Source: T1SED10-198M sp003554345 [NCBI: Candidatus Sumerlaeota bacterium] (GTDB taxonomy: Bacteria; Sumerlaeota; T1SED10-198M). From it: a stretch of 5,224 bases of DNA. Shown piece after piece: positions 1 through 5,224 of the stretch. Position numbers and translations under genes: made by a program. The stretch covers positions 1 through 5,224 of the forward strand of contig PWGE01000021.1 of assembly GCA_003554345.1 (NCBI GenBank), in the 5' to 3' direction. Numbering within the stretch: position 1 is the stretch's first letter; each line of letters begins with the position of its first letter. The notes under the pieces are model-generated. The model saw only the letters and a list, made by a program, of their open reading frames with translations. It searched no databases and had not been told where the DNA came from.

Positions 1-14
1 ATTTTCAGAGGAGT
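1..14 (+). repeat. 14-base direct repeat, copy 1
   Basis: The sequence ATTTTCAGAGGAGT occurs here and again, identically, at 203-216. The two copies are offset by 202 bases and the sequences diverge immediately after them. The window edge cuts the left side, so the repeat could be longer upstream. Confidence 0.7.
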
Positions 15-20
15 TATTCA

Positions 21-40
21 CGCTAACTCAAGAGTTAGCG
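21..40. repeat. Perfect palindromic hairpin
   Basis: CGCTAACTC at 21-29 is the exact reverse complement of GAGTTAGCG at 32-40, leaving two central A bases. As RNA this would be an 8 bp stem with a 4-base CAAG loop. No T-run follows on either side, so it is not a standard intrinsic terminator. It could be a REP-like intergenic palindrome or the end of a small repeat element. Function is unknown. Confidence 0.7.
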
Positions 41-97
41 CCACCAATCATGAAAATAGCACTCTTTTCTTGTAGTCTTAATCTGAAATCTTATCCT

Positions 98-184
98 CTT
101 CATCCTGTACATCGATGCAAATTTTTCTGGTTTCTTATTCTTTCTGGACTTATCTCGACTTCATCCCCGTATCATCGATGTAAA
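98..184. repeat. Degenerate tandem repeat, period about 61 bases
   Basis: Two imperfect copies begin at 98 and 159. Each starts CTTCATCC, continues to CATCGATG (110-117 and 173-180) and then runs into an A-then-T-rich stretch. On the - strand, the part around 92-107 reads as ACAGGAT followed by AGGATAA. This is the degenerate ACAGGAT-type intergenic repeat also seen after the sua5-type gene at 3174-3366. It is non-coding by appearance. Confidence 0.5.
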
Positions 185-202
185 ACATTTTTTCAGGTTT
201 TT

Positions 203-216
203 ATTTTCAGAGGAGT
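203..216 (+). repeat. 14-base direct repeat, copy 2
   Basis: This is identical to positions 1-14 (ATTTTCAGAGGAGT). The GAGGAG core resembles a ribosome binding site, but the next ATG (236) is about 20 bases away, so a translational role is unlikely. It more likely marks a conserved edge of an intergenic repeat unit. Confidence 0.7.
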
Positions 217-406
217 AGGTGCATGCCGGTCAACCATGATACATGAGCTGAAGAATCTAACCCCCACTTCCAGCCGACGCACTGATCAGGATTTTCTCAG
301 ACGAAGACGTGAAGAAAATGACGATCTATAGACGAGGCTTGAACGCGGGAGTTCATGGAATACGCCGGCAGGTTGAACTAATACAAAATAAAAAGAAAGA
401 AGCAAT

Positions 407-3109: not shown

Positions 3110-3430
3110 AATGAACCCACCAGCCGCAAATTTTCAGAATATTCCCCTTTTCAGGAAAACTTTATCATACATCTTATCCCCTGTATTATCCTGTGAAGCC
3201 TGAAATTTTCTTATCTCAGTTCTTTTCCTGTTTTCTCTTAACAGTCTGATCTGGCAATTTTTTCTTCAGTCCCATCCTGCATTATCCTTTCCTGTTCATC
3301 ATGTTGAAGACATTTCTTTTCCGGGTATCTTTAGTTTTTTCGGAGTCTTTATCCTGAAAATCCTTTGGCATCTTCTCTTTTCTTGCGTGTCATTTCTTTT
3401 CCAAAAGCATTCCCTCTTCTTTGCGTGCTC
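3110..3430. repeat. Pyrimidine-rich degenerate intergenic repeat region
   Basis: About 320 bases without a gene, strongly T/C-rich on the + strand. The hexamer ATCCTG recurs at 3188-3193, 3274-3279 and 3351-3356, with many further TATCC, TTCCTG and TTCAG variants. On the - strand these read as degenerate CAGGAT-type units. The final part (about 3366-3430) contains TTGCGTG twice, which reads as CACGCAA on the - strand and resembles the degenerate ACGCAAAG intergenic repeats of several environmental phyla. - strand frames are short and interrupted. The composition matches 90-200 on the other side of the gene block. Confidence 0.5.
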
Positions 3431-3458
3431 CTACTACAAATAGATTATAATAATAGAG

Positions 3459-3464
3459 TATAAT
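3459..3464 (+). promoter_or_regulatory. Possible -10 box (TATAAT)
   Basis: A perfect TATAAT sits in an AT-rich stretch (3440-3470). No convincing -35 hexamer lies 16-18 bases upstream. If used, transcription would begin near 3471, right before the inverted repeat at 3476-3541. A perfect -10 in AT-rich DNA arises easily by chance, so confidence is low. Confidence 0.2.
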
Positions 3465-3475
3465 TAAGAACTAAG

Positions 3476-3541
3476 GGAAGCAGAAGGCCGGCTAATTGCG
3501 TGTAGGCTTCGAGCTTGTCGCAAAGTCTGGCATCTGCTTCC
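3476..3541 (+). ncRNA. Candidate structured RNA element, multi-helix hairpin
   Basis: The outer arms GGAAGCAGA (3476-3484) and TCTGCTTCC (3533-3541) are perfectly complementary. Nested inside them are GCC/GGC (3487-3489 with 3529-3531), TTGCG/CGCAA (3496-3500 with 3519-3523) and a short apical stem closed over TCG near 3504-3516. This gives four co-axial helices separated by internal loops, as in a structured RNA. It lies about 490 bases upstream of the IS110 transposase start. It could belong to the element's non-coding left part, be a separate small RNA, or be a remnant of another repeat. It has no tRNA arms and matches no riboswitch I recognise. Confidence 0.3.
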
Positions 3542-3625
3542 TGGATGTTTAGCTTTAGATGTTTTCAGTAAATTAAAGGAGCCTGAAATATTTATTGTAC
3601 AATTAAGCCGGGCAAAATTAAAAAG

Positions 3626-3698
3626 GGGAAAGCAGGAATCCAGCTGTTACCATACAAGCTCTTAGCCTATAACAGTCCGGATTTACTCCTGCTTTCCC
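3626..3698. repeat. Long imperfect inverted repeat (hairpin)
   Basis: GGGAAAGCAGGA (3626-3637) pairs perfectly with TCCTGCTTTCCC (3687-3698). The stem continues with ATCC/GGAT (3638-3641 with 3679-3682) and CTGTTA/TAACAG (3644-3649 with 3670-3675) around a 20-base loop. That makes 22 base pairs broken by a 4-base bulge on one arm and one small internal loop. On the - strand the stem is followed by CC then TTTTTAATTTT (ending near 3614), so it could act as an intrinsic terminator for leftward transcription, although no leftward gene ends here. Alternatives are a REP-like palindrome, a miniature element, or part of the IS110 non-coding RNA region. Confidence 0.6.
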
Positions 3699-4031
3699 GT
3701 TGCTCTCTTTTAACGAATCCCTGTTATTCTGTCCAAAGAACTATCTCTCATCTTTATGGTACAACTTTTTTTGCTTTTATCCAGTGACTTTTTACCGCAC
3801 AATATTTTGTGAGATGTTTAGCCTCATAACAATACCAAAAGAAGCCGGGAAGGGAAGTGTTTCACAAGTCCTTCTTGCAGATGTTAGGATGTAAAGCCTG
3901 TCACAATGTGCGGACAATTGCTTTGTAAAGCTCCAATAAGTTGATTGGGCTCCGAGCTCGAGTGCAACAACGGAGAATGGGTAAAAAGCAAGCGGTGAAC
4001 ATTCCTTTCTACTTAATTAAAGGAGGAGACC
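3699..4031 (+). other. Non-coding region before the IS110 transposase, candidate bridge-RNA region
   Basis: I find no convincing gene in these 333 bases. Several small hairpins are visible: CACAA/TTGTG (3798-3802 with 3807-3811), CCAAT/ATTGG (3933-3937 with 3944-3948) and CTCCG/CGGAG (3950-3954 with 3971-3975, 16-base loop). IS110-group elements encode their bridge RNA between the left end and the transposase gene, and bridge RNAs fold into successive stem-loops with guide-bearing internal loops. This position therefore fits. The exact RNA boundaries, the guide sequences and the left end of the element cannot be assigned, because the right end lies outside the window. Confidence 0.35.
4019..4026 (+). 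promoter_or_regulatory. Strong Shine-Dalgarno of the transposase gene
   Basis: AAAGGAGG ends 5 bases before the ATG at 4032, close to an ideal ribosome binding site. It decides the start codon of the transposase. It is much stronger than anything before purK or the sua5-type gene in this window. Confidence 0.8.
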
Positions 4032-5224
4032 ATGAACAAGTGGTACATTGGCATTGACATTGCCAAAGAAAAGTTTGACGCGGCCTTGCTCCATGCAGAC
4101 AAGGGGTGTATCAAACATGCCGTTTTTGAACAGAATTATGAGGGCTTTCACGGCCTGCTGAAGATGGTGAAACAGCACTGTGAAAACCCGGACCAGGTAT
4201 GGATTGGTATGGAATCTTCGGGGCATTATCACTACAATTTGTTTGCGTTTCTCAGAGAAAAGCTTACTCCCAACATCACTATTCTCAACCCCATGATCAT
4301 TGCCAAGTATTGTAAAGTGACCTTGCGACCCTGTAAAACGGACAAAAAAGATGCCGTTAAAATTGCCCGGTACCTGGTGGAAACGAAAGTCAAGCCAACG
4401 GTTCCCAGCAAAGTGTTGCAGCAATTGTCTTATTATGACAAAGAGCGCGAACACTATGTGACCAGGCTTGCCGAGTGCAAGGTAAAGATACGTTCCTGGC
4501 TGGCTTTAGGTTTTCCGGAATTAGAAAGGGAGATCGTTTCATTATCTTCGAGATACCTGATTACCTTTCTGGAAGAGTTCCCCAGTGCCCCCTCGGTAAC
4601 AGCTATGAGCCGACGCCACTTCATCAAGAGGTTTCACGAAATGTTGCCTGCAAAAACAAAGAATATGAACCTCAAGCCGGAAGAAGTGTACTCATTGGCC
4701 AAACGCTCTATAGGCAGAGAATTTGAAGGGTACAGGAAACTGTTTCGCACGACGATTGAGATAATGTATACCTTGAAAAAGACGGTGCAGACTCTGGAAC
4801 AGGAACAGAAACAGCTTTGCACAAAACATTATCCCTTACAGATGGCAATAGTTCAGAGCATTCCAGGAATAGGGCCTATTTCGGTGGTCTCTATTTTATC
4901 GCATTTACCGGCTATTGAAAATTTTGAGAGCCACCGAAAGGTGATCGCCTTTGTCGGGACGGATCCGGTTATTAGACAATCGGGAAAGTACCAGGGGCGC
5001 GGTCGTATCTCCAAAAAAGGTAATCCCCACCTGAGACGACGCCTGTATCTGTGTTCATTGCGAGCAATACAAACAGACGGCGTCTTTAAGGACTATTATC
5101 ATCGATTGAGGGAAAAGGGCAGACCAGCCAGGGTCGCCCTGATTGCCGTTGCAAACAAGTTGCTCAAAATTCTCTATGCCCTCCTCAGTAAGAAGGAGAT
5201 GTTTGACGCGAATTATCACCAAAG
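4032..5224 (+). CDS. IS110-family DEDD transposase/recombinase, 3' end beyond window
   Basis: IS110 recombinases move their element through a circular intermediate using a RuvC-like DEDD domain plus a C-terminal domain bearing a catalytic serine, guided in studied members by a bridge RNA. The frame is open for 397 codons with no internal stop and continues past the edge. The N-terminal DEDD domain (about 1-155) shows GIDIAKEKFD with Asp9, MESSGHYH with Glu61, and KTDKKDA with Asp104 and Asp107, so all four acidic residues are present. A helical linker (about 236-268) leads to the Transposase_20-type domain. That domain has the IPGIGPIS hairpin-helix motif (277-284), DPVIRQSGKYQGRG (311-324, Ser317 the likely nucleophile by family position) and ISKKGNPHLRRR (326-337). 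The family is usually about 330-450 residues, so little should be missing. The gene appears intact and possibly active. Confidence 0.95.
   Translation, partial: MNKWYIGIDIAKEKFDAALLHADKGCIKHAVFEQNYEGFHGLLKMVKQHCENPDQVWIGMESSGHYHYNLFAFLREKLTPNITILNPMIIAKYCKVTLRPCKTDKKDAVKIARYLVETKVKPTVPSKVLQQLSYYDKEREHYVTRLAECKVKIRSWLALGFPELEREIVSLSSRYLITFLEEFPSAPSVTAMSRRHFIKRFHEMLPAKTKNMNLKPEEVYSLAKRSIGREFEGYRKLFRTTIEIMYTLKKTVQTLEQEQKQLCTKHYPLQMAIVQSIPGIGPISVVSILSHLPAIENFESHRKVIAFVGTDPVIRQSGKYQGRGRISKKGNPHLRRRLYLCSLRAIQTDGVFKDYYHRLREKGRPARVALIAVANKLLKILYALLSKKEMFDANYHQ

Follow-up and report, generated by a model that had tools for sequence, protein, structure and literature searches.

Recombinases that work with a guide RNA of their own are ordinary in the IS110 family, and bridge RNAs are described as short molecules with two loops. 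In IS621, as far as the cited account extends, the target-binding loop (TBL) occupies positions 34–98 and the donor-binding loop (DBL) positions 110–177, 11 nt apart; the two loops of one synaptic complex belong to different RNA molecules, and recombination in vitro also proceeds when TBL and DBL are on separate molecules (PMC11208158). Elements of the IS1111 group, as portrayed in the seekRNA work (PMC11187229), resemble the element described here in joining a DEDD transposase to a short guide RNA, but their long noncoding region usually lies downstream and they possess subterminal inverted repeats, neither of which is seen at this locus: exact inverted matches between the element's first and last 60 nt reach no more than 6 nt, and nothing points to an RNA 3′ of the transposase, since the right end is no more structured than its shuffles (z 0.53). 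The initial annotation had allowed for structure confined to that side; what structure there is lies upstream.

The window (the whole stretch of DNA analyzed, 5,224 nt) is one entire contig of a fragmented genome (454 contigs; completeness, 87.66%). Genes with PurK, PurE (AIR carboxylase), and Sua5 domains are followed by an IS110 recombinase at 4032–5222 on the plus strand, which was recognized by profile matches and alignment and is cut by the contig end. Its initial identification as an IS110 recombinase with a DEDD set and a C-terminal serine motif holds: the window's open reading frame matches PF01548 (1.6e-25) and PF02371 (2.9e-24), a full-length copy of 433 aa at locus L006 matches the NCBIfam model “IS110 family RNA-guided transposase” (6.5e-65), and D9, E61, D104, and D107 (the DEDD set) as well as S317 are identical in all six aligned recombinases. 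The protein thus combines the DEDD_Tnp_IS110 and Transposase_20 domains and the catalytic residues of the IS110 group. It matches the IS621 recombinase structure (PDB 8wt6) at 9.3e-19, and the locus shares with IS621, in what Durrant 2024 (PMC11208160) and Hiraizumi 2024 (PMC11208158) describe of it, the DEDD and serine residues, a CT core, an RNA in the left end, the order of TBL before DBL, a junction promoter, and the targeting of a dispersed intergenic repeat. A further match, to ISCro4 (PDB 9t56; 1.4e-17), is a likeness of the recombinase alone. The window's genome (incomplete, at the value given above) yielded no second IS110 recombinase, and no Rfam family was detected at gathering score; the two matches returned (E 3.5 and 3.9) both lie outside the element. 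A weak match of L006 positions 1164–2462 to the NCBIfam model TIGR_Tas_endo (2.9e-8; 34 bits, below the cutoff of 100) was also observed, and it fits the C-terminal part common to IS110 and TIGR-Tas proteins.

The element is 2,174 bp long; the window carries its left part and L006 the complete copy, the two differing at 4 of 1,806 positions over 3419–5224, with one of these differences in the flank. Alignment of copies, as the initial annotation had proposed, fixes both ends and the core through L006 and the junction contigs, and it puts the left end 604 bp before 4032 (3428–4031) rather than a few tens of bases before it. With a right end of 268 bp, the longer noncoding side lies upstream of the transposase, as in the IS110 group. 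Comparison of the left junctions (window, L006, L002, and L003) defines a left target flank, TTGCGTG, at 3421–3427 on the plus strand, abutting the element, and a core dinucleotide, CT, at 3428–3429, which forms the element's left boundary. CT is present at all four left junctions, each of the form TTTGCGNG-CT-CCTACTAC, and at both right junctions (L006 and L007), which read TATAGTTGA-CT-TTGCG. The insertion sites observed are intergenic TTTGCGNG-CT-TTGCG, and insertion is sequence specific at a short core common to target and element.

The window and L006 have the same left end in different flanks. L002 and L003, which show only 74 to 79 nt of the element before their contigs end, differ from both at 3444; at least four copies of the element therefore exist, and the long left end can be seen in only two of them. 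A site related to the window's left flank but free of the element (L005, on contig C44) is 88% identical to that flank over 60 bp. The sequence TTTGCGNGCTTTGCG occurs at 27 sites in the genome versus none in the control, and one of the 27, on contig C203, adjoins an insertion. Window positions 1–230 and 3110–3427, along with many contigs of the genome (L008 to L036), carry dispersed intergenic repeats in which CTCTGAAAATA and TTTGCG motifs occur; the TTTGCG motifs are targets of the element. Elsewhere in the same genome, contig C289 holds a related left end (L004), 73% identical and located after TTTGCGAA-CT. It represents a second, related IS110 lineage, whose contig ends just past its target loop.

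L006 itself derives from a record titled as a Thermoplasmata MAG (PULU01000064.1). Transfer to an archaeon was considered and rejected on the distribution of the flank repeat, which occurs at three places in the Thermoplasmata MAG, all on this same contig, and which accounts for 44 of the 46 matches between the window's genome and the right part of L006. The contig is most likely mis-binned.

The first loop, TBL1, spans 3475–3542 on the plus strand, with an outer stem of 3475–3484 and 3533–3542. It folds better than its shuffles (z −4.35; none of 200 as good), its structure is kept in L004, and it contains the only occurrence in the window of the TBL motif GAGCYY-N5-8-AGTCTG (3511–3529; 0.01 expected). 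Comparison with the targets places a left target guide, TTGCGTG, at 3496–3504, followed by TA in place of the expected CT core guide, and pairing with the known right targets places a right target guide, GTCGCAA, with the core guide AG at 3517–3525. The left guide agrees with the four left targets at 7, 6, 6, and 6 of 7 positions, and the right guide pairs with the element's own two known right targets at 6 and 5 of 7, although the two fits are not independent because the guides pair with each other. By sequence comparison, then, the guides of TBL1 fit the element's own insertion sites on both target halves, which upholds the initial proposal that the element has guides of its own; against this stand the TA at the left core guide and the failure of a TBL model built from six relative sequences (R1) to find the loop in the window, L006, or L004. 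The window's right guide forms at most 2.5 of 7 pairs with the targets of nine relatives, whereas the relatives' guides reach up to 4.5 of 7 on one window-type target; in L004, the left guide matches its own target at 5 of 7. Across the three available sequences, 98.5% of the cells in the TBL1 alignment pair, compared with 34 to 48% when the alignment is slid, and no pair shows a two-sided change.

The second loop, the DBL, spans 3918–3991 on the plus strand and was located with a covariance model, the motif GTTGATTNGGCY, and alignment with relatives, which back the part from 3930 to 3982; the outer stem (TTGCTTT/AAAGCAA) occurs in the window's element only. The motif is found once in the window (3940–3951; 0.01 expected). 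The covariance model (R2), built from five relative sequences with the window excluded, has its best match in L006 at the place of window positions 3935–3980 (17.8 bits, E 0.001; next best, 4.5 bits, E 6.2). Over 31 sources, the DBL match has an E value of 0.038; nine relatives' copies score 55 to 66 bits and an unrelated match 13.3. In an alignment of six sequences, 6 of 17 predicted pairs show two-sided changes, and the stretch from 3699 to 4031 thus contains the covariation on which the initial proposal depended. A guide scan and the relatives identify a left donor guide, AAGTTGA-TT, at 3938–3946, which corresponds to the element's right end, TAGTTGA-CT. A right donor guide, CGG-AG, can be read at 3971–3975; its pairing with the left end, CT-CC, is limited to GG-AG, the core and two bases. 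The donor guides fit the element's own ends, the right one being short, and this conserved loop, separated by 40 nt from the recombinase start codon, would read the joined ends of the element.

The relatives with which these loops were compared are IS110 elements from genomes G180, G055, G630, and G736 (L046 type, L040, L088, and L087), whose recombinases are 28 to 34% identical to that of the window (33 to 34% for the G180 copies). Relatives occurred in 9 of 386 genomes (the window's own included), 1 of 25, 3 of 392, and 1 of 50; among the three matches in the set of 392, L089 has neither a TBL nor a DBL motif. In viral contigs, a single-protein query returned no closer relatives, and an alignment query returned 25 loci at 26 to 34% identity. 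Plasmids yielded 3,632 records, all below 60% identity, the best among the matches listed being 31%. Like the window's element, the G180 copies, L040, L087, and L088 have CT-CC at their beginning and AGTTGA-CT at their end, and they share its TBL and DBL motifs and their order: in each, a hairpin whose guide runs into AG-TCTG precedes a second loop with GTTGATT and GGC (GTTGGTT and AGC in L087). One alignment (A2), in which outer stems of differing length are mixed, was left out of the modeling. The relatives' right target guides fit their own right targets at 4.5 to 6 of 7 (a G-T pair counting as half), but their targets are alike, to the point that the L040 guide fits the L038 target (7) better than its own (5), which limits this test of specificity. 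Within G180, L038 has the guide GAGG and the target CCTCT, the L046 type has AAGG and CCTTT, and L049 has GAGG with CCTTT, a G-T pair. The right target guide of the G180 copies (L046, L049, L038, L052, L085, and L086) resembles a Shine-Dalgarno sequence (AAGGAG/GAGGAG), and, judging from the flanks alone, the G180 element may insert at ribosome-binding sites.

What sets the window's element apart from all of these is the separation of its two loops, a feature absent from the initial annotation. In the comparison, which covers the window, L006, and nine relative copies, the TBL core guide and the left donor guide are 416 nt apart in the window and L006 versus 31 to 32 nt in the nine relative copies, and the left end measures 604 bp against 190 (L046), 203 (L040), 204 (L087), and 219 bp (L088). 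The two loops do not, in other words, lie together on one compact RNA as in the relatives. Between them lie 375 nt (3543–3917), some 384 nt more than the relatives have between core guide and donor guide; in IS621, by the spacing that PMC11208158 gives, there are 11 nt and no second TBL-like hairpin in between. So far as a literature search of mostly open-access journal articles shows, natural bridge RNAs whose loops stand apart have not been reported.

This arrangement revises where the bridge RNA had been placed. The initial annotation assigned it to 3699–4031 as a whole, on the strength of successive small hairpins; parts of it do lie upstream of the transposase, and the DBL falls inside this stretch, but TBL1 ends 157 nt before 3699, and 3699–3917, most of the stretch, belongs to an insert that has no relative in the collections searched. 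The hairpins (CACAA..TTGTG at 3798–3811, CCAAT..ATTGG at 3933–3948, and CTCCG..CGGAG at 3950–3975) are legible in the sequence, but the stretch shows no structure above chance (z −0.28; 35 of 100 shuffles folded as well), nor do three substretches of it (z 0.47, −0.36, and −0.02), and the latter two hairpins fall within the conserved DBL, where comparison supports other pairing. The strong hairpins lie upstream of 3699, at TBL1 and at 3626–3698 (z −4.95 on the plus strand and −6.27 on the minus strand; none of 200 shuffles as good).

The insert matches nothing in the plasmid collection, elsewhere in the window's own genome, in 60 related genomes (queried with 3400–5224), or in Rfam, and its 63-codon reading frame (3703–3891) matches no Pfam family; its interpretation as a known element, RNA, or gene was rejected accordingly. 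Direct tandem duplication of the left end was likewise rejected: 33 of 500 shuffles equaled the plus-strand alignment, as opposed to 1 of 500 for the inverted one. An internal promoter for the DBL was given no weight, the one consensus match in L006 500–1200 (window 3861–3890) comparing with 1.2 expected; the scan of that region listed no terminator. A 20-nt direct repeat (80%) ending in TTAAAGGAG has its first copy (3562–3581) downstream of TBL1; its second (4006–4025) is the recombinase's ribosome-binding region, and the repeat may bear on how the insert arose.

Within the additional 384 nt, the hairpin at 3626–3698 has a perfect outer stem of 12 bp and is probably a diverged, inverted second target loop (TBL2) with other guides. 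Read on the minus strand, its apical 16 nt are 88% like TBL1, and a model built from TBL1 and L004 (R3) scores 20.4 bits (E 9.5e-5) on that strand and 13.7 bits on the plus strand. Of 2,000 shuffled hairpins, those aligning as well on the minus strand numbered 1 globally and 2 locally, compared with 1 and 17 on the plus strand; when only the interior was shuffled (again 2,000), the counts were 0 and 12 for minus and 47 and 47 for plus, the orientation having been picked post hoc. Some of these same figures favor a different origin, in that TBL1 read backwards also reaches 15.0 bits with R3 and the plus-strand alignment is globally as rare as the minus one. The hairpin is moreover followed on the minus strand by CCCCUUUUU, and the guides of the putative TBL2 have no genome site at fewer than two mismatches (10 sites at two, and 10 in the control). 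The hairpin could therefore be an unrelated element, such as a transcription terminator, and no target loop at all, a tentative reading that deserves serious consideration despite the inverted apical likeness, the R3 score, and the shuffled controls on the minus strand. Reading the hairpin as a donor loop instead was dropped: a scan for donor guides gave a poor fit, and relatives place the DBL before the start codon.

Taken together, we consider this likely to be an IS110-group element that uses the bridge-RNA mechanism with an extended left end, its loops carried by one RNA with a long linker or by two RNAs. Excision to a circle would bring the right end, TATAGTTGA, up against the left end, CT-CCTAC, which, from the sequence, would create a promoter, TTGACT-N16-TATAAT, just before TBL1, with its −35 box made up of right end plus core and its putative −10 box at 3446–3451 on the plus strand (the best spacer between 15 and 19 was taken). 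The corresponding junctions of relatives read N17-TATAAA in L046 and N17-TATAAT in L040, and those of L087 and L088 have only 4 of 6 bases. Transcription from this promoter would yield TBL1, whose guides would choose intergenic TTTGCGNG-CT-TTGCG sites, and the DBL would read the joined ends. Some 384 nt, including the apparent inverted TBL2, would have been added between the two. The loops would then share a single RNA of about 535 nt, joined by a very long linker, or form two RNAs through processing or separate transcription. A long or split RNA is mechanically plausible given that the separate loops of IS621 work in vitro, as the cited part of PMC11208158 has it. A narrower version, in which TBL and DBL are carried by two distinct RNAs or lie at either end of one long RNA that is processed, and in which the element still transposes and its gap took up a second, inverted TBL, strikes us as rather doubtful.

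That the same insert occurs in two copies with different flanks indicates that this arrangement has moved, either by its own RNA or helped in trans. Help in trans is the substance of a second alternative, in which the insert broke the bridge RNA and the copies seen were mobilized by an intact, compact element related to them, present in the same population and with an RNA that recognizes the same ends. L002 and L003, given their difference at 3444 and the short length known of them, may lack the insert, the genome also holds a related left end (L004), and the insert has no known relative in any collection searched. Nevertheless, the insert stands at two sites in nearly identical copies, which preserve both TBL1 and the DBL, and the genome, incomplete as it is, has yielded no other IS110 recombinase; we hold this alternative to be unlikely. 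Very improbable is a true target loop inside 3699–4031, beside the DBL as in relatives, with TBL1 being something else: the weak guide-like matches at 3806–3815 and 3922–3930 stand 116 nt apart in sequence unstructured beyond its shuffles, the TBL motif lies only in TBL1, and the TBL follows the junction promoter in relatives too, and this candidate was rejected.

If the extended bridge-RNA reading is right, a natural element with loops almost 400 nt apart makes it possible to test in vivo whether both loops must reside on one molecule. It also suggests, with engineering in view, that the loops may tolerate a large insert between them, and it hints at a modular route by which an IS110 element could come by a new target loop. 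Should the loops indeed be split, target modules could be acquired or exchanged while the donor module stays as it is.
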